Shown piece by piece: positions 26,730 to 59,545 of a stretch of 64,000 nt of DNA; position 1 is the stretch's first letter; each line of letters opens with the position of its first letter. The translations under genes were made by a program, and so were the position numbers. This DNA is from Lentisphaerales bacterium (GTDB lineage Bacteria; Verrucomicrobiota; Lentisphaeria; Lentisphaerales; Lentisphaeraceae). The stretch is taken from positions 62,001-126,000 of the forward strand of contig JAKVBD010000005.1 of NCBI GenBank assembly GCA_022446985.1. The letters are read 5' to 3'. The notes under the pieces were generated by a model. That model worked only from the letters and a program-made list of their open reading frames with translations, made no database searches and had not been told where the DNA came from.

Positions 26730-28142
26730 TTATTTCTTTTTCTTTTTTCTTGCTTTTGGTCTGTCACCTGGATTGTCGATATCCAGATCATCGCCCATTT
26801 GCTTTTGTAGAGCTTTGAATTCAGTTTTGAGCCTGGATACAACAGAGGCGTACTCTGGGTTATCGATCTGGTCGTACATTTCGTCTGGATCTTTTGCCAG
26901 GTTGTAAAGACGCAGCTTTTTCTTAGCATAAGGGTACATGATCAGCTTCCAGTTATCTTTGATCACCATACGCTGCCAGTTGATGTACTTACCATAAACG
27001 CTTTTTACGTTGGTTGTTTTTTTGCCATTAATGATTGGCATAAGACTCTGGAATTCGACGTAATCAGGCTTGTCTGCCCTTGCTAGATCAAGGGAAGTTG
27101 CCATGGCATCTTGAAGATAGATTGGCTGTTCAATTTTTTTGCCGGCTTCAATGCCCGGGCCAGTAATCATGAATGGAACTCTCATAGAGTGGTCGTACAT
27201 GTTTTGCTTACCAAGTAGACCGTGGTGACCAACACCCAGACCGTGGTCAGCTGTGAAGATGATGTAAGTGTTATCTCTCATACCCGATGCATCAAGCGCA
27301 TCAAGAATACGACCGATCTGTTTGTCCATGAAAGTAAGAATAGCATAGTACTCTTGACGGTGAACGTTTACGGCAAATTCTGTACGTGGGAATGGCGCTA
27401 GACGCTCATCGCGAAGTGAAGGAGAACAGCCGATGTCATCTTTATAAGGGTACTCAGCCAAGTAGTTTTTAGGAAGCTCCATTTTGTCGAGTGGGTACAT
27501 GTCGACATAGTCTTTTGGGGCTTGGCGAGGATCGTGTGTCGCATTGAAAGCCAGGTACATGAAGAATGGTTTGTCATCTTTCTTAGCCTGCTCGATGAAT
27601 TCGATACTGTTGTTAGCATGTACTTCACTCCAGTGAGTGCCACCTTCCCAGAATCCGCCTTCAGCTTTATCCCAGGGTTTCCAACCGGTTTCGTAGTGCT
27701 CTTTACTTTTTGGACGGTCATAGCCTGAACCTTTTGGCATACCGCCACGCTTGTCTTTTACGATGTCGAAGCGAGGGTTGCCAGGAACGTGCCATTTGCC
27801 AGTCATGTAAGTTTTGTAACCGGCATCTTTCATGAGTTCTGACCAGTGCGGCTTTTCATTTATGGCTTTTTGAGCGCGGTTAACATAGGCTCCTGAGTTG
27901 AGCATCGCACGGCTGGCCGCACAAACAGCACCACCCCAGGCACCCATGTTATAGGCATGTGTAAAGTGGGCGCCCTGATGAACCAATTTGTCCAGGTTTG
28001 GAGTTTTGGCTTGAGTTTTACCAAGATAGCTGAGCATTTCAAAATTCAGGTCATCTGCAAAGATGAACATGATGTTTGGCTTTTTATCTTGTCCGGACAC
28101 CGAAAGAACCAGTGCCAGAAAAGCAATCAGAGCGTACTTCAT
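26730..28142 (-). CDS. Secreted sulfatase (CAASR motif)
   Basis: The 470-residue sulfatase has a signal peptide (1-17), FADD (28-31) metal ligands and active motif C74-A-A-S-R78 in AVCAASRAMLNSG. Cys-X-Ala-X-Arg is a recognised variant of the formylglycine consensus. Further conserved pieces are YKTYMTGKWHVPG, FFMYLAFNATHDPRQAP and FTADHGLGVGHHGLLGKQN. These features resemble iduronate- or choline-sulfatase-like S1 members. The C-terminus is a run of Lys/Arg (ARKKKKK). It is the second gene of a two-sulfatase operon, seven bases after its partner. Confidence 0.92.
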   Translation of the reverse strand: MKYALIAFLALVLSVSGQDKKPNIMFIFADDLNFEMLSYLGKTQAKTPNLDKLVHQGAHFTHAYNMGAWGGAVCAASRAMLNSGAYVNRAQKAINEKPHWSELMKDAGYKTYMTGKWHVPGNPRFDIVKDKRGGMPKGSGYDRPKSKEHYETGWKPWDKAEGGFWEGGTHWSEVHANNSIEFIEQAKKDDKPFFMYLAFNATHDPRQAPKDYVDMYPLDKMELPKNYLAEYPYKDDIGCSPSLRDERLAPFPRTEFAVNVHRQEYYAILTFMDKQIGRILDALDASGMRDNTYIIFTADHGLGVGHHGLLGKQNMYDHSMRVPFMITGPGIEAGKKIEQPIYLQDAMATSLDLARADKPDYVEFQSLMPIINGKKTTNVKSVYGKYINWQRMVIKDNWKLIMYPYAKKKLRLYNLAKDPDEMYDQIDNPEYASVVSRLKTEFKALQKQMGDDLDIDNPGDRPKARKKKKK

Positions 28143-28149
28143 AAATTAC

Positions 28150-29667
28150 CTATTTCTTCTTTATCTTATTTGATTTTGGTTTGTTTTTGTAAACTTCAGG
28201 ACCACGCCATGTTTGCTGCATGCGGTCAAATGATTCTTTGCCGTACTCGGTGCCTTCAAAGCTTGCTTTTGTTGAATCGCGCCAAGCCAGAGCCTGCTTT
28301 TTCATTTCAGCAACGACTTCTGGATATTGGCCGGAAAGATCTTTGGCTTCGGCGACATCATTTATCATGTCGTAGAGTTGGTATGTCTTACCACCATCAT
28401 ATGAAACAAGTTTGAACTTATTGTCAGTGAAGGTGATGCGGTTGTTGAACATGTGGCCGATAAGCTGCTCGCGCTTAGTCATTTTACCTTCCATAAGTGG
28501 AATAAGGCTGACACCATCCAGAGTATAGTTTGATTTTGGGTGATCAATGCCAAGAGCATCAAGAACAGTTGGAACATAGTCAGAGGTTACACATGGAACA
28601 TCTGTCTCAATTCTTTGTTTGATTTTTGCCGGCCAGACCATAACTCCAGGAACTCGAACACCGCCATCGTAAAGGTCTCTTTTTCTACCGCGCAGAGGAC
28701 CTGCAGAACCGTTGTTTGGATTTTCTTTTGATTCAGGACCGTTGTCTGAGCAGAACCAGATCATGGTATTTTCATCGGCACCAATGGCTTTTAGGTGAGC
28801 ACGCAAGCGGCCAATCTGTTCGTCCATGGCTGTAACGCAACCAGCATAATTGCGGCGTTCAAGAGGATATTGCTTGAACATTTCCTGATGTTTTGGACCG
28901 GCGACACAAGGCCAGTGTGGAGTGTGGAACCAGATTACTGATATGAAAGGCTTCTTTTCAGCAACAGCCTGGTCAATAAACGGGATAGCGCGATCCATGA
29001 TGACTTTACTGTCATCGCCATCGAGATTATCAGTGACTTTATTGCCATCGATATCCCAGTAAGCCGTACCATAAGGAACTTTTTCCTGACCTTCTTTTAT
29101 GTATGACCAGCCAATTTTCAAGCTTTCATCCTCAGCGAAATTCTTTGGTTTCCACATAGGATCATAAGTCGGCACTTTGGACTCTGTTACAAAAGCATTG
29201 TCATAACCGTGAATTTTAGGAGGGTTAAATTCTTTAGTATTTCCCGGACCACCTCGGTTGGCATCCTTCTCTTTAGTCGTCAAAGTTCCCAGGTGCCATT
29301 TGCCAAAGTGGCCGGTTGCGTAACCCTGTTCTCTAAGAATTTCAGGAAGGGTTATTTCTTCTGGTCTTAGAATGCCGACGTTCGCAGTAAAAATCCCGGT
29401 TCTGTAAGGATTTCTACCGGTTAAGCAACTGGAACGGGTAGGAGAGCAGACTGAAGAAGCGCTGTAGAAACGATTCATCTGTAGACCTTCCTGAGCCATT
29501 TTATCTAAATGTGGTGTCTTGATAATGGGATTGCCATTGTAGCCGGTATCACCCCACCCTAGATCATCTGCCATAATCAAAATGACGTTTGGTTTATCCT
29601 GAGATAAACCACTGACTGTCAGACCGATTAGCAATAAGACACACAGTTTGTTGAAAATTCTTTTCAT
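28150..29667 (-). CDS. Secreted sulfatase (CSPTR motif)
   Basis: The 505-residue sulfatase has a signal peptide (about 1-22), MADD (32-35) metal ligands and C74-S-P-T-R78 in VCSPTRSSCLTGRNPYRTG. YATGHFGKWHLGTL supplies the substrate-site Lys/His. WFCSDNGPES and GPLRGRKRDLYDGGVRVPG complete the arylsulfatase A-like pattern. The C-terminus is basic (SNKIKKK). It leads the two-sulfatase operon. A hypothesis is that this exo-type sulfatase and the CAASR enzyme act one after the other on the same glycan. Confidence 0.93.
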   Translation of the reverse strand: MKRIFNKLCVLLLIGLTVSGLSQDKPNVILIMADDLGWGDTGYNGNPIIKTPHLDKMAQEGLQMNRFYSASSVCSPTRSSCLTGRNPYRTGIFTANVGILRPEEITLPEILREQGYATGHFGKWHLGTLTTKEKDANRGGPGNTKEFNPPKIHGYDNAFVTESKVPTYDPMWKPKNFAEDESLKIGWSYIKEGQEKVPYGTAYWDIDGNKVTDNLDGDDSKVIMDRAIPFIDQAVAEKKPFISVIWFHTPHWPCVAGPKHQEMFKQYPLERRNYAGCVTAMDEQIGRLRAHLKAIGADENTMIWFCSDNGPESKENPNNGSAGPLRGRKRDLYDGGVRVPGVMVWPAKIKQRIETDVPCVTSDYVPTVLDALGIDHPKSNYTLDGVSLIPLMEGKMTKREQLIGHMFNNRITFTDNKFKLVSYDGGKTYQLYDMINDVAEAKDLSGQYPEVVAEMKKQALAWRDSTKASFEGTEYGKESFDRMQQTWRGPEVYKNKPKSNKIKKK

Positions 29668-29848
29668 TTTCTACCTTCTGAAAGATTAAAATTTTATTCT
29701 TTAAATCCTCAGCGACACGTACAAGTTTTTATTTCTCACACTCTAGGAGCGCGTGCTGATTGGAGTTTTGGATGTCTCTTTTAAAAAATTCTAAACTTAT
29801 TTGGAAATGGGCTCAATTGAATGGGGAAAATGATTTAGGAAATGGAGT

Positions 29849-31891
29849 TTACTTTTTTACGTCTGTGATCTTAAAGTTGTCTTTGAGAAGATCCATTTCG
29901 ACTTTAGAGATGTAGTTGCTGTCTAAAATAATTTCTTCGACTTGGTTGTCCTTGAGCATGTTGATCCGGCTTTTATTGAATGGATTTGTTCGGCAGCCAA
30001 CGATAATCAGTTTTTGAAAAGTCAGGCCGCGTAGTTGGATGAACTCAAAAAAACTTGTGTGGCTTAGGTCGAGAGTGTGAAATTTTAGAGGTTTGAATAT
30101 ATTCAGATTATATTCAGCGAGTCTAAATGTATGATAGTTCTTGGGGAGTAATTTGAGAACACCATCTTTGTAATGGACTTTGTTCAAACCAGCTTTTTTG
30201 TCCCAAAGGTTATTTAAAGCATTCAGCATGACGGAAGAACTTTGTAAGTAATCTTCAGGCAGAGCATTTTTGTCAGAATAAAATTGCATATGCTTGGCAT
30301 AGAAAGCTTTCATTAACTCAAGAGAGCCAGCTCCGCTAATTTGCCACATAAGCTCACCGATTTGTTTTTCTGTCAGTTTATCAGCTTCACCTTTAACAGA
30401 AAGGGCCCACTCAGATACTTTAATTAAGTGATCTATCCCTTTGGCTTTGGTGCATTGCTTAAAGGAGTCAATTGATTGTTGAAATTCCTGAATAACGAAG
30501 TGCAGAACTGATTTTTTCTTAAGCATGGCATTGATCTTTTTTTGTTTTGTTTCGCGGCGAATCCCTTCATTGAGAAGGTCAATTTTTCTTCTGGCGGAAC
30601 TTAGATCCGGACTTTCGACAATTTCTATAAATAACAAACTGATTTCATCGCGAAGTTCGCTACTTATTTTTTGCTCTTCCTGTAAAAGCTTGAAGTTATT
30701 TTCGGCAATATTTTTTTGTTTCACAGCTTCATTTTTGGCCGTAACGGCCTGTTCGCGTTCTGTTTTGATTCTCTCGAAGGATGTATAGACAGTAATGGCG
30801 ATGAAAATGAAAATAAGGCCGATCACTGAAAGGGGCTTTTTGTTACGCAGGATGAGTAATTGAAGTTGGGTAAGAAAGCCGGCATTTTCAGCTGCTGTTG
30901 CAAAGCCGTGGATGAAATTGTCTAAGTCAGCTTTTAATTCAAGAACATCTTGGTAGCGGTCTTTTTTCTCTTTTGAAAGACTCTTGGTGACTATGGCTTG
31001 GATACTCTTGGGCACTTCAGGGAAGGTACTAATTGGGATTATTTGAGCTTCTTTAGTTTTTTCTAACAGGGTATCGATCGTGTCCCCCTGAATGGGAGAT
31101 TGACCTGTGAAAATAGTGTAGAGAATAGCGCCGAGGGCATAGATGTCGGAACGGGTATCTTTATCACCATAGGGAGTCGCCTGCTCTGGAGCCATGTAAC
31201 CCGGGCTACCTTTTATACGGCCATTGATCGTAGCATGGTTAAGGATATTTGGATCGAGATCTTCATCGATGTCCATGTCATCATCATCAGTCAATATTTT
31301 TGCCAGGCCCCAATCACACAGGTGAACCTCTCCGTATTCTCCGATCTGGATATTATCAGGTTTTAAGTCCAAGTGGATTATTTGTCTTGAGTGAGCATAG
31401 GCTACGGCATCGCAAATCTTGTTAAAAACATTGAGTAGTTGATTTTGGCTTAAAGATTTTTCTTTGATGATTACGTGGAGGTTTTTACCGCCAAGAAGTT
31501 CCATAGTGAAGTAGGGCGAGTCATTTTCATCAAAGCCTAAACCATAGATGGAGATGATATTTGGGTGTTGTAAACAGGCCGTCAGTCTGGCTTCTCTCAG
31601 AAAGCTTTCGGTAGATTCGCGCCCCGCGTCCTTTTTGAGCTTTGCCATGGCAATACTTTGCGATGCTTTGAGGTCGGTTACTTTGAAGATTTCTTTCATG
31701 CCGCCACGACCAATGAGTGATGGGGCTTTGTAGCGTTCAGAAAGCTGTTTTAGCTCAGTCTGAATGGGATAGGCCATCTGCAGGTCTTCTTCGCTGATGT
31801 CATTCAGTGTCATCGAGCAGTAATTGCGCAGGGTATCGCGCATACTGTCGAAGAAATCTTCTTCTTTCTTATCGCTTTCTTGAGATGCCAT
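29849..31891 (-). CDS. Transmembrane Ser/Thr protein kinase with LRR-like C-terminus
   Basis: The 680-residue kinase has its catalytic domain at about 55-335: glycine loop IGRGGMKEIF, the ATP Lys in SIAMAKLKK, the catalytic loop IIHLDLKPDN (HLD for the usual HRD) and LCDWGLAKIL (DWG for DFG). SPGYMAPEQ is the activation segment. A helix at about 354-370 crosses the membrane and a coiled coil follows. The outer part ends with leucine-rich motifs (KFHTLDLSHTSFFEF, QVEEIILDSNYIS). HLD kinases lack the Arg that senses activation-loop phosphorylation, so it may be constitutively active. It is divergent from the ECF sigma gene, an arrangement typical of PVC kinase-sigma modules. Confidence 0.92.
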   Translation of the reverse strand: MASQESDKKEEDFFDSMRDTLRNYCSMTLNDISEEDLQMAYPIQTELKQLSERYKAPSLIGRGGMKEIFKVTDLKASQSIAMAKLKKDAGRESTESFLREARLTACLQHPNIISIYGLGFDENDSPYFTMELLGGKNLHVIIKEKSLSQNQLLNVFNKICDAVAYAHSRQIIHLDLKPDNIQIGEYGEVHLCDWGLAKILTDDDDMDIDEDLDPNILNHATINGRIKGSPGYMAPEQATPYGDKDTRSDIYALGAILYTIFTGQSPIQGDTIDTLLEKTKEAQIIPISTFPEVPKSIQAIVTKSLSKEKKDRYQDVLELKADLDNFIHGFATAAENAGFLTQLQLLILRNKKPLSVIGLIFIFIAITVYTSFERIKTEREQAVTAKNEAVKQKNIAENNFKLLQEEQKISSELRDEISLLFIEIVESPDLSSARRKIDLLNEGIRRETKQKKINAMLKKKSVLHFVIQEFQQSIDSFKQCTKAKGIDHLIKVSEWALSVKGEADKLTEKQIGELMWQISGAGSLELMKAFYAKHMQFYSDKNALPEDYLQSSSVMLNALNNLWDKKAGLNKVHYKDGVLKLLPKNYHTFRLAEYNLNIFKPLKFHTLDLSHTSFFEFIQLRGLTFQKLIIVGCRTNPFNKSRINMLKDNQVEEIILDSNYISKVEMDLLKDNFKITDVKK

Positions 31892-32044
31892 AAAGTGAGC
31901 TGTTTACTTTTAAATGATTTCAGGATAGTATACAGTAATTTTAAGCGTGAGAAGTGGATCAGTCCACAGGTAACGCAAATTATGTGTTTAAGCAGTAAGT
32001 GAGAGTTGATGTTTTTGAAGTTTGGGATGGTGGAGAATAGTGGG

Positions 32045-32354
32045 TTTTTACCACCGGGATGGTGGTGTTCCCAGGGTTTTTTTGCCGCAAGGGATTGCGG
32101 CGCTCCCAGCATATTTTCTTTCATCCTTGTATTTTTGCGTGATACTTTGGCTTTCCTAATCTCTGCGCCCCTGCGCCTGTGCGTGAGATTTTACACATTT
32201 TTTTCGGCGGAGCGCTTTTCCCGGAGATGGCTGCGGTGTTCCCAGATTATTTACCGGCGGGTTGCCTATGTTCCTATGGTTTTTCTTTGCGTCTTTGCGC
32301 CTTTGCGTGAAACCTTAGGATTTTTACCATCGAGACGGTGGCGTTCCCAGGGGG
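32045..32354. repeat. Composite array: five hairpin units alternating with two heptad repeats
   Basis: Five units share a short stem-loop followed by GTTCCCAGG or a variant: 32045-32076 (CCACCGGGATGGTGG), 32082-32110 (GCCGCAAGGGATTGCGGC), 32220-32245, 32252-32279 and 32325-32354 (CCATCGAGACGGTGG). Two heptad stretches sit between them: 32161-32190 (CTCTGCGCCCCTGCGCC...) and 32285-32313 (CTTTGCGTCTTTGCGCC...). The order is unit, unit, heptad, unit, unit, heptad, unit. Base pairing in the stems is kept while the bases differ, which points to selection on structure. The last unit runs straight into the ECF sigma start codon. Confidence 0.75.
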
Positions 32355-32358
32355 TGTT

Positions 32359-32964
32359 ATGAATCAGACTTACTCAACGCGTTACACCTTGCTGGAAAGA
32401 GCTAAGAGTCAAAGTGATGCCAAAGCCTGGGAAGAACTGATTGGTTTTTACCGTCGTTACATCTATGTCATTATACGTTCTCAAGGCGTCAATGAAGATG
32501 ATACTGAGGATGTACTGCAGCAGGTTCTTGTTGAGCTTTGGAAATATCTTCCCGGTTACAATTATGATCCTAAAAAAGCAAAGTTTCGTTCGTGGGTCGC
32601 AACTGTAACGCGTAATCAAGTTATTAGCTTTATTCGCCGCCAGCAATCCCATGCCAAGAAACTGGATAAAGCACAACAGGAGTCTCAGGAGTCCTATTTA
32701 AACTCTATCAATACTCCAGAAGTTGAGGAGATTGCGACAAAAGAGTGGGAGCTTTTCTTATCGAATACAGCTTTGGATAACGTGGCTAAACATTTTTCCC
32801 CTAAAGCATTGGAAGCCTTCGAACTCTTTGCCAAAGGTTTCAAGGCAAATGACATAAGTAAGCAGTTAGATGTTAAGGCTGATTCTATTTACAAATATAT
32901 CAGCCGTATAAAAGTAAAGCTTGTGGAAGAAATCCAAAACCTGAAACGGGAATTGGATTTCTGA
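32359..32964 (+). CDS. ECF-type RNA polymerase sigma factor
   Basis: The 201-residue protein has sigma region 2 (AWEELIGFYRRYIYVIIRSQG, EDVLQQVLVELWKYLPGY, KAKFRSWVATVTRNQVISFIRR) and region 4 (LEAFELFAKGFKANDISKQLD followed by SIYKYISRIKVKL). I start it at ATG 32359 because GGGGGTG from the adjacent repeat unit forms its ribosome site 5 bases upstream; a GTG 7 codons earlier would read into the repeat. No anti-sigma gene follows; the divergent transmembrane kinase is the likely regulator, by phosphorylation as proposed for planctomycete ECF-kinase pairs. It converges with the exported globin, 6 bases apart. Confidence 0.93.
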   Translation: MNQTYSTRYTLLERAKSQSDAKAWEELIGFYRRYIYVIIRSQGVNEDDTEDVLQQVLVELWKYLPGYNYDPKKAKFRSWVATVTRNQVISFIRRQQSHAKKLDKAQQESQESYLNSINTPEVEEIATKEWELFLSNTALDNVAKHFSPKALEAFELFAKGFKANDISKQLDVKADSIYKYISRIKVKLVEEIQNLKRELDF

Positions 32965-32970
32965 TAAGGG

Positions 32971-33426
32971 TTACTTATTGATCACTTTGTTTTTGAGGCT
33001 GCCTACGAGAGTCATAACTTGCAAAGTGAGTTTTGGGTCGACTTTGAGTTCATTTAGAGTCGCCTGTAAATGTTCGGCAATAACCATGAAGTGTTCTACT
33101 TTGAGGTTTAGGCCTTTATGAGCTTTTTCCATGGTTTTGCCTTCATATTTAATGGGGCCACCGAGGACAGATCTTAAAAATTGCTTCTGCCTTTTTACCT
33201 GTCTTTTCATATTTATATCTTCGAAGAAATGGTTAACTTTTTTATCTGCTAAAACTTTCTTATAAAATAGGTCAACGGCGGCATCAATAGCCTTTTGTCC
33301 TCCAATTTGCGTATAAAGTGATTCTTTTACAGCAGTAGGTTTGTTTTCGATCTTGTTGACAGTTTGAGACTGTGCAGTGAAAGTTAAGATAAATAGTAGT
33401 GCAATGAGGCTTGTCCAGAGTTTCAT
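32971..33426 (-). CDS. Exported group I truncated hemoglobin
   Basis: The 151-residue protein has a signal peptide (1-20, TFTAQSQ) and a truncated-hemoglobin domain from about 35: SLYTQIGGQKAIDAAVDLFY (helices A-B), VNHFFEDINMKRQ with the FF pair (67-68), and KAHKGLNLKVEHF with proximal haem His H103. Most truncated hemoglobins are cytoplasmic, so a signal peptide is unusual. It would place NO or O2 chemistry in the periplasm. Ribosome site AAGGAAA lies before the ATG. About 90 bases upstream is an NsrR-like palindrome, which fits nitric-oxide control. Confidence 0.9.
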   Translation of the reverse strand: MKLWTSLIALLFILTFTAQSQTVNKIENKPTAVKESLYTQIGGQKAIDAAVDLFYKKVLADKKVNHFFEDINMKRQVKRQKQFLRSVLGGPIKYEGKTMEKAHKGLNLKVEHFMVIAEHLQATLNELKVDPKLTLQVMTLVGSLKNKVINK

Positions 33427-33506
33427 GTGTGTTTCCTTTTTTAAAGGTGTATTTATATTGCATGTTTAATATATGGTTCTGGCTGCCCTAAAGTAAAGGT
33501 GCGTCT

Positions 33507-33541
33507 TATTAAACATGTATTTTAATTACATATTTAATTAG
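33507..33541. promoter_or_regulatory. NsrR-like palindromic operator
   Basis: ATGTATTTTAATTACAT (33515-33531) is nearly a perfect palindrome, and its flanks (TTATTAAAC and ATTTAATTA) extend the symmetry to about 35 bases. It resembles the NsrR/Rrf2 consensus (ATGYATTT..AAATACAT). A related half-site GCATGTTTAATATATG lies at about 33459-33475, closer to the globin start. Position upstream of a globin gene fits repression lifted by NO. The identity of the regulator is inferred. Confidence 0.6.
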
Positions 33542-33584
33542 TTTGTTCAAAGTTGAGCATCATAAACAACTTCATAAAATAACA

Positions 33585-33604
33585 AAAGGAGAGAAAAAAT
33601 GTAA
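33585..33604 (+). other. Orphan ribosome site followed by ATG-TAA
   Basis: AAAAGGAGAGAAAAA is directly followed by ATG TAA (33599-33604). A strong Shine-Dalgarno with a start-stop suggests that a gene divergent from the exported globin, sharing the palindrome, lost its body, possibly when the IS4-like element entered just downstream. Up to 33795 I see no other coding remnant I can name. Confidence 0.4.
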
Positions 33605-33795
33605 TCAATCGTCTTAACTTGAATTCTGGTATTTTGTGACCAAAGCTGTGTTTCATTCAGTTCTGAAGAGCAGGTTACAATTAGTAAAATTAAAGTACAA
33701 TAGTCCCACACTTTTAAGTTCTATGTCTTTTCAACATTAATCTGTGCTCAGGTTTTTCACGATTTTATTCATAAAGATTTTATTTTTTACTCTAT

Positions 33796-35020
33796 CTACC
33801 CATATCGAATTGATTTGAATCCTGGTAAGTAGAGCTGTTGTGGTACGGTAACTATTCGATTTTTATGTTTTGCTGTCCCACAAAATTTTAGGAATGAGTA
33901 TAGATCAATCCTACTCCACATCACTTCTCTAATCACAGTGAACAGCCTTGTGAATGATGCTTTCCATTTTGATTGATATGAAATAAATCTCAAGATTACG
34001 TAGGTCAATAGTGCCGTCCAGATCTGCCATCTAACTGCATTCTCATTATACCCGAGAAAGTCTGCGAGTTGTAGGTTTTGCTTTATCTCCTTAAACAAAG
34101 ACTTCTGTAGCCCATCTTGATTTGTCCAGATCGGTAATAGACTGCGCCGCCCATTCAAAATTATTTGAGATAAAGCTCATAAGCTTTTCTTTGCCATCAA
34201 CGATAACTTTTACTTCGACTAATCTGAGCTCCCGGGGATAACCTTCAAATGACTTTTTAATACTAAGTTTTATTCGTTGATCTCGGATAATATTGCCTTT
34301 TGGAGCTGTATGTTGTCCGATAACTTCATACTTCATATTTGTCTTGGATCGGCTAACCCAATAAACACCGCGACCATTTAGATAGTCTGGGTGTTTGTAG
34401 TCAACATAGGCTTTATCAAAGACAATGATTTCTCCAACTTTAACTCCAGCACATAATTCCTTGGCTTCGATTGAGTCGTGACTTCCTGCTGATTTAACGA
34501 TTGCAAATGAAGGGAGAAAACTCTGTAGGCCTAATCTCATATTGCATCTTACTGCGGCTTTATGTCGACGGTACTTAGCCCAATCAAGAAATTAGCTGCC
34601 AAGCTAATAGCAGTTGAATCAACTGAATGAATCGTGCGTCTAAAACGATGAGGAAAGCCACAATAATTACGGCCTAAACCAAAGTCCGGGCACTGCACTT
34701 GGAAAGACCTTAAAACGATCCAGAAAAGCTCTTCTGCCTTATCTCCATTTTGGGTGCGAATCGCATAAAAAAGACCATTATGGCTTGGAGGATTCACTCC
34801 GCGAATTGTTATTAAATCGCCGGAACGGTATTGGAGGCAGTCACAAATATCATTCAGACTAACACTGTAAAGAGTTGACAATGAATTAGTGATACAAGAT
34901 GGCTCTAAGGTGAAAAGCTGCGGCTGGCGACGTCATATTTCTTAGAAAGTTTAGGCACTAAGTTAGGTGGAATGTGTTCGCATACTTGCTTTAAGATACT
35001 AAATTTTATATTTCGTTGGC
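33796..35020 (-). pseudogene. IS4-family transposase, decayed
   Basis: Read from right to left across at least four frames, the sequence gives an IS4-type DDE transposase. It shows ILKQVCEHIPPNLVPKL, a TAG, then VSLNDICDCLQYRSG and RFRRTIHSVDSTAISL (first Asp), IIVFDKAYVDYKHPDYL (second Asp), SISNN-type spacer, and SRWATEVFFKEIKQNLQL (Glu of YREK-like motif). Frameshifts lie near 34890, 34580 and 34110. Imperfect inverted repeats may flank it: TATTTTGTGACCAAA near 33630 and, inverted, TTTGGTCGAAATAAAATA near 35045. The element is dead; it could move only with a transposase supplied in trans. Confidence 0.85.
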
Positions 35021-35125
35021 TTTATATCATTTCGTTTTTGTTTTTTGGTCGAAATAAAATAATGGAATGGAAGCCAGCGTCCATTCTATAGACTAATTCT
35101 TGTCTATTTATGGGATCATTGTTAA

Positions 35126-35382
35126 ATGAAAGTTAATAATACAGATAATTTTGAAGAAGTACAGAGTCCGGAGAAAGCGGTATTATAGCTCTCCTACCTT
35201 ATGTTGCAGGAGGTGAAAATAGGCCATCTGGACAACAGAAAGATATGGTTTGTTTTGTTTCAATTGACAAGTGGGCGACTTGGCCGGTATCAATAATCTG
35301 GACCGTAGCTCAATCGTATATAGATGCAGAGTGGGTAAATCAAAAGGACGCAGTCTACAGGTATGAACTGCCCAAGAAATAG
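35126..35382 (+). pseudogene. Small unknown gene, frameshifted
   Basis: An ATG at 35126 opens MKVNNTDNFEEVQSPE. The frame then stops at about 35186, but a neighbouring frame continues with coding character (SGIIALLPYVAGGENRPS, SIDKWATWPVSIIWT, WVNQKDAVYRYELPKK) to a TAG at 35380-35382. One indel near 35170 would make one protein of about 85 residues with a central hydrophobic stretch. I do not recognise the family. Confidence 0.45.
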
Positions 35383-58857: not shown

Positions 58858-59259
58858 TTAACGGTTAATCATCCAAGGGCTAAAGCCGCGAAGGAAATTA
58901 ATAAATCCAGGAAGATGCTCTTCTGGAAAGTTGTATTTCTCGGAGGCGTTGGATAACGTTTTTTCAAAACATTCCAGCCAGACGTCTTTTGCAGTTTCGT
59001 CGATTGGAAATGGCATATGCCTCGCTCGTAAGCGTGGATGACCATATAATTGATGGTACAGAGGCGGGCCTCCGCATAAACCGATAAAAAAAGCCGCCGA
59101 CTTTCTCGATGCAGTTTTTAAATCTTCTGGAAACATGTCTTTTATACTGGATTCTCCCAATTCCATATAAAAGTCTTCCAGCATTTGGACGATGTTTTCT
59201 GAGCCCATTACTTCAAATATTCCAGCATTAGGCGGGTCGACCTGTGGAGGGCCAAACAT
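58858..59259 (-). CDS. Group II truncated hemoglobin
   Basis: The 133-residue globin has the group II pattern. IVQMLEDFYMELG is helix B, IKDMFPED ends helix C, and GLCGGPPLYHQLYGHPRLRA is helix E/F. H81 in RARHMPFPI is the proximal haem ligand, and W94 in DVWLECF is the conserved G8 Trp of TrHb2. I start it at ATG 59259 with AGAGGA 9 bases before it; an upstream TTG would add 26 residues. These proteins bind O2 tightly and are linked to oxidative or nitrosative stress. No signal peptide, so cytoplasmic, unlike the exported group I protein at 32971. Confidence 0.92.
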   Translation of the reverse strand: MFGPPQVDPPNAGIFEVMGSENIVQMLEDFYMELGESSIKDMFPEDLKTASRKSAAFFIGLCGGPPLYHQLYGHPRLRARHMPFPIDETAKDVWLECFEKTLSNASEKYNFPEEHLPGFINFLRGFSPWMINR

Positions 59260-59545
59260 ATGTACTTTTCCTCTAAACCTTGAATTTAAGCTGAAATATA
59301 TCGCTTCTTTCAAAACTACCACGGCATTTTTGTTCAAAGTCTTAAATTTTTACATAAAGTTTGTAGAAAGGTTGTTGTTTGCGTAGTAATTACAACAGCT
59401 TCCCTTCTTAGTAGTTGTTGTGAAATGGGTGTATTGTTGGCCTATAACTCAAATCAGATGGATTTGTTACAAATTTTGAGCAGTAATATATCGATCATTA
59501 ACTTATATTGATAATAATCATTGAATAAACAAGAAAAATATCAAC

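Follow-up and report, generated by a model that had tools for sequence, protein, structure and literature searches.

The window, a stretch of 64,000 nucleotides from a contig of a Lentisphaerales bacterium (G000:C217:62001-126000) whose genome also looks Lentisphaeria-like by gene content and kin, carries a gene for a putatively exported group I truncated haemoglobin, two NsrR-like palindromic sites upstream of it and, on the opposite strand, the remains of a lipoprotein gene interrupted by an IS4-like insertion. The coordinates of these features are collected in Table 1.

Table 1. Features of the haemoglobin locus, in positions of the window.
Feature	Position	Strand	Basis or remark
Group I truncated haemoglobin, putatively exported, 151 aa	32971..33426	-	PF01152, PDB relatives, tree
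Proximal NsrR-like site	33446..33464	.	11/14; first base 38 nt before the haemoglobin start
Distal NsrR-like palindrome	33514..33532 (core 33515-33531)	.	11/14; flanked by the divergent starts
Shine-Dalgarno AGGAGAG of the decayed gene	33587..33593	+	Sequence
Decayed lipoprotein gene, 5' part	33599..33695	+	ATG-TAA start, further in-frame stop; DNA alignment
Left copy of 9-bp target duplication (AAATTAAAG)	33687..33695	.	Comparison with IS ends
IS4-like insertion, 1428 bp	33696..35123	-	PF01609; ends as in the G003 copies
Right copy of target duplication (AAATGAAAG), one difference	35124..35132	.	Comparison with IS ends
Decayed lipoprotein gene, 3' part	35124..35382	+	Internal frame change, stop 35380-35382; tblastn and alignments

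The haemoglobin matches the Pfam family Bac_globin (PF01152) with 70.9 bits, and its closest solved relatives in the PDB are group 1 truncated haemoglobins, bearing out the group I identity first read from the sequence. H103, the proximal histidine, is invariant in a 12-row globin alignment and occupies what we take to be the F8 position. The N-terminus, MKLWTSLIALLFILTFTAQSQ, resembles a Sec signal by eye, and the N-termini of its relatives are signal-like too. In a tree of 23 globins, L107 included, the 15 exported ones lie on one side of a branch (92/99), and the window haemoglobin stands beside that of L038 (87/73), within the exported Verrucomicrobiota clade. In many of the relatives the globin is preceded by a YHS-like stretch that scores below the Pfam cut-off and that the window haemoglobin lacks; the exported globins of L043, L044 and L040 are examples. 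The family genomes G001-G005 contain no close match to the exported haemoglobin, so the gene was either acquired by transfer or lost in those genomes.

Other globins were met in the course of the analysis. The window encodes one more truncated globin, at 58858-59337 (-), which is of another type. On contig C221 of the same genome (G000), a 405-aa protein joins three group I globin domains in tandem, 87-90% alike (L020:6101-7318), with an NsrR-like box 32 bases before its start; it is the only case of three globins in one frame in 288 genomes. One PF00042 globin lies within a 1084-aa open frame (G000:C35:5164-5469, L123), and a globin match was found within an 835-aa open frame of G346 (C47:256850-257233, L113).

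The intergenic region was scored against the published NsrR consensus gATGyAT-N5-ATrCATc (PMC1274295), which has 14 letters. The distal palindrome, ATGTATTTTAATTACAT, has matching arm pairs at 7/8 positions in the 17-mer and at 9/11 in the 23-mer, so the near-perfect palindrome with extended symmetry described in the earlier note was confirmed. It carries 11/12 core letters of the NsrR motif, with one core position deviating. The same note had reported an accompanying half-site; an additional site is indeed present, and it proved to be near-complete, both sites matching the consensus at 11/14 letters. Such a maximum was reached in the same region with P = 0.03 in Markov resamples; since 3% of resamples reach 11/14, a lone site is weak evidence. 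The conservation of the candidate sites and their placement in the genome, described below, lift them above chance. The proximal site has the same position as the single sites of the C227, C221 and G001 globins (-31, -32 and -38) and probably serves the haemoglobin. The distal site is nearer the middle, and the lipoprotein gene, or the two genes together, may once have been under its control. A promoter scan was uninformative, with three promoters found and 2.3 expected.

A scan of contigs yielded 13 loci with relatives of the haemoglobin, 61 to 49% identical. Most are titled as Verrucomicrobiota MAGs; two bear the names Klebsiella pneumoniae and Proteobacteria, perhaps as misnamed bins. An Rrf2 gene adjoins the exported haemoglobin in nine of these loci (L038, L040, L041, L043, L044, L045, L047, L048 and L050), a count that is effectively about 8/12, L045 and L048 being near copies. 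It does not adjoin the haemoglobin in L039, L042, L046 and L049, of which L046 and L049 contain little upstream sequence, so that an adjoining Rrf2 gene could be missed there. In the nine Rrf2 loci, in the order given, the best box scores 13, 12, 13, 11, 11, 10, 12, 10 and 12 of 14, that is, at least 11/14 in seven and 10/14 in the other two; the four loci without an adjoining Rrf2 gene score 8, 9, 8 and 8. Among 176 upstream regions taken from these loci, all three scoring at least 12 belong to globin or Rrf2 genes, as do six of the 12 scoring at least 11; this set excludes genes with fewer than 200 upstream bases, with non-ATG starts or shorter than 150 aa, and several target promoters are therefore absent from it. 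Eleven additional regions were covered, L097 and L098 in detail, L107 in the tree and eight by a tblastn screen only. The box scores 13/14 in L097 and 9/14 in L098, each with an Rrf2 gene nearby and one gene intervening. L098 (2378-3502, G223) has two adjacent globin genes beside its Rrf2 gene, one cytoplasmic-like and one exported.

An NsrR-like regulator of the Rrf2 family, on whose presence the earlier reading depended, was found in the genome. A PF02082 profile search returned two Rrf2 genes, on contigs C227 and C216. The C227 regulator scores 110 bits with PF02082 (cut-off 30), consistent with the Rrf2 fold, and its top model is NsrR, with 124.6 bits against 76.9 for RirA. The NsrR score lies below the NCBI equivalog cut-off of 182 bits (NF008240), and we therefore call the protein NsrR-like rather than NsrR. 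Alignment to Streptomyces coelicolor NsrR (5n07) showed that Asp8 and the three cluster cysteines are all conserved, following the Fe-S ligand numbering given in PMC9338935. A group I globin gene lies divergently to the C227 gene and is followed by a 2Fe-2S/FAD reductase gene (L021:7513-9440); the same layout of nsrR-like, globin and reductase genes occurs in G001 (L022:10030-11955), where the site scores 12/14. The second Rrf2 gene, on C216, precedes a gene that is sufB-like by eye. A different account would have the C216 protein, or a factor outside the Rrf2 family, control the haemoglobin, which would then answer iron or Fe-S status and not NO. Among the Verrucomicrobiota regulators, RirA and NsrR models do score about equally (116.3 vs 116.5 in L043, 110.2 vs 109.0 in L045), but NsrR stands well above RirA in this genome and in G001, the C216 protein at sufB scores as a SUF/IscR type, and the box fits the NsrR consensus. 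We regard control by such a regulator as rather improbable, and favour the C227 protein as the candidate repressor.

On the side opposite the haemoglobin, the Shine-Dalgarno sequence leads into ATG-TAA at 33599-33604. The earlier note had taken this for an orphan start; the ribosome site and the ATG-TAA are as described, but they open a decayed lipoprotein gene that runs on to 35382. The 97 bases before the insertion and 250 bases after it match, in order, one intact lipoprotein gene on C221. The 97-base 5' part matches the first third of that gene with a DNA score of 38, the best of 1000 resamples being 33, and the 3' part scores 56 at the DNA level (best of 1000, 34) and 108 at the protein level (45). 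The N-terminal peptide alone gives a modest match, equalled by 9/1000 shuffles. In a tblastn search with the C221 lipoprotein, the only matches in the genome were the intact gene itself and window 35215-35346 (E 2.3e-7).

The intact C221 gene encodes 112 aa. It overlaps the three-globin gene, which has an NsrR-like box, at that gene's end. By eye, the C221 protein and its relatives share a signal with a lipobox-like Cys and the motifs LPG.GN.Y and W..SI.W..PQ..IDA; no Pfam or NCBIfam family was found over cut-off. Its distribution is patchy: at E 0.001, 7 of the phylum's 387 genomes gave hits, the present one included. Relatives of the protein occur in G006, G015, G079, G158, G219 and G234. 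No globins were found among its neighbours in the loci examined in other genomes. Both copies in the present genome adjoin globin genes that have NsrR-like boxes, and this placement is the sole hint that the lipoprotein may act in the same response as the globins.

In Verrucomicrobiota relatives, the usual divergent neighbour of the exported haemoglobin is an Rrf2 gene, which raises the possibility that the gene lost here was nsrR itself and that the lipoprotein remains are unconnected with the ATG-TAA start. We consider this very unlikely, and the DNA alignments with the lipoprotein gene led us to reject it: the 97 bases counted from the ATG match the lipoprotein gene (38 vs 33), the far side of the insertion continues the same gene, and PF02082 gives no Rrf2 match on contig C217. 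The divergent pair, with a lipoprotein gene as its lost member, is thus well supported. That a divergent gene once stood here, as first proposed, agrees with the remains on either side of the insertion and their match to the C221 lipoprotein gene.

The insertion is assigned to the IS4 type, with a DDE transposase, terminal inverted repeats and a target duplication, on the basis of PF01609 and of copies in G003. The latter relatives, of about 1424 bp and with 9-bp duplications, were used to set its ends. Its transposase is degraded into three frame fragments, one of which matches PF01609 (4.1e-8), and because the transposase is broken the insertion is probably not recent. The decayed gene has two stop codons before the insertion and a frame change after it. 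Loss through the IS4 element, suggested earlier, therefore holds in that the element splits the gene, 97 bases in; with stops and a frame change also present, it need not be the first cause of the loss.

Comparison with a close relative was possible on one side. G001, the one same-genus genome searched, retains the gene order found left of the haemoglobin (window 26730-32964), with a pair of sulfatase-like genes, a kinase gene and a sigma-factor gene, and at the corresponding place there is no haemoglobin, no IS and no lipoprotein gene. The divergent partner could not be read from G001, in which haemoglobin and lipoprotein are both absent; with no haemoglobin there, the comparison is uninformative on the ancestral state and neither supports nor refutes a divergent pair.

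The box was then considered across the 6.34-Mb genome. Allowing at most one mismatch to the core, 45 places match, against 27 for a reversed-pattern control. Of the five PF01152 genes, three have one of the 45 matches at their promoter, those for the exported haemoglobin, the triple globin on C221 and the C227 globin; the chance expectation is about 0.0018 matches per 250-base promoter (hand calculation). The best site of the remaining two PF01152 globins (window 58858-59337 and a broken gene on C198) scores 10/14. A narrower pattern modelled on the palindrome, ATGTATNTNANNTACAT, with at most one mismatch, is not enriched (12 vs 25 for the control, by strand). Enrichment across the genome is thus weak (45 vs 27, and 12 vs 25 for the narrower pattern), and only the placement of the matches is informative. 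Thirteen further candidate sites were inspected; no NO gene was recognised by eye at any of them, and several lie inside reading frames. A PF03063 profile search found no hcp. The NsrR core occurs without a mismatch just once in the genome (L084:2071; G000:C79:45070-45086), 88 bases ahead of a gene that is sigma-factor-like by eye. The search for further copies of the palindrome, then, found it again at two other globin promoters, and also in relatives. That the palindromes are chance products of A+T-rich DNA without function, as the single-region P of 0.03 would allow, is scarcely credible against this recurrence at two other globin promoters of the genome and at promoters of the relatives.

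We conclude that the region is probably a divergent NsrR-type operator, joining the C227 repressor, the exported haemoglobin, the former lipoprotein gene and release by NO. The two sites, the regulator and its conserved ligands, the recurrence of the box at sibling genes and in relatives, and the lipoprotein remains can be read in the DNA itself, and from them we infer the following course. By analogy with known NsrR proteins, the C227 repressor would bind one or both palindromes while its Fe-S cluster is intact, silencing the haemoglobin and, formerly, the lipoprotein gene on the opposite strand. NO would damage the cluster, as in those proteins, and the repressor would release the promoters. 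The derepressed haemoglobin, if exported as its N-terminus suggests, would remove NO outside the cytoplasm, and the lipoprotein may have had a part in this.

The closest parallel is the glbN-lpg2536 pair of Legionella pneumophila, encoding a cyanoglobin and a ferredoxin reductase under predicted NsrR control (PMC1274295). There too an NsrR box precedes the gene for a truncated group I globin, the one target predicted in that account, and the C227 locus, with its globin and 2Fe-2S reductase, has the same layout with a regulator gene added. The window haemoglobin differs from the Legionella case in its putative signal sequence, the lack of a reductase partner and the divergent lipoprotein gene. 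With the NsrR-hmp pairs described for proteobacteria, bacilli and streptomycetes (PMC1274295) it would share an Rrf2 repressor, a palindromic operator and a globin target, although the target here is a small, putatively exported globin and not a flavohaemoglobin. In cable bacteria, truncated-haemoglobin domains are fused to pentahaem cytochromes and have been proposed to be periplasmic (PMC11976967), which would likewise place truncated globins outside the cytoplasm; in contrast to the window protein they are cytochrome-fused and proposed as an oxidase, and the passages describing them mention no link to NsrR (PMC11976967). MAGs of Hydrogenedentota and Sumerlaeota carry nsrR and glbN, and so unite NsrR with a group I truncated haemoglobin within a genome (PMC10866078), but the haemoglobin is described there as intracellular, and the passages describing these genes contain no operator analysis (PMC10866078). 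The open-access literature searched yielded no account of an exported truncated haemoglobin under NsrR control.

It is conceivable, as a tentative generalisation, that some Verrucomicrobiota and the present genome rely on exported truncated haemoglobins, frequently with a YHS-like front, as an NsrR-controlled first line against external NO. Here the lipoprotein might be an envelope partner, and the three-globin fusion would be a protein behind an NsrR box with the same lipoprotein following it. The predicted NsrR regulon would thereby take in truncated haemoglobins that are exported, in a phylum for which the open papers searched contain no such analysis. NO defence beyond the cytoplasm could be tested at this locus, which would also be a case of a regulon member lost while its operator persists.
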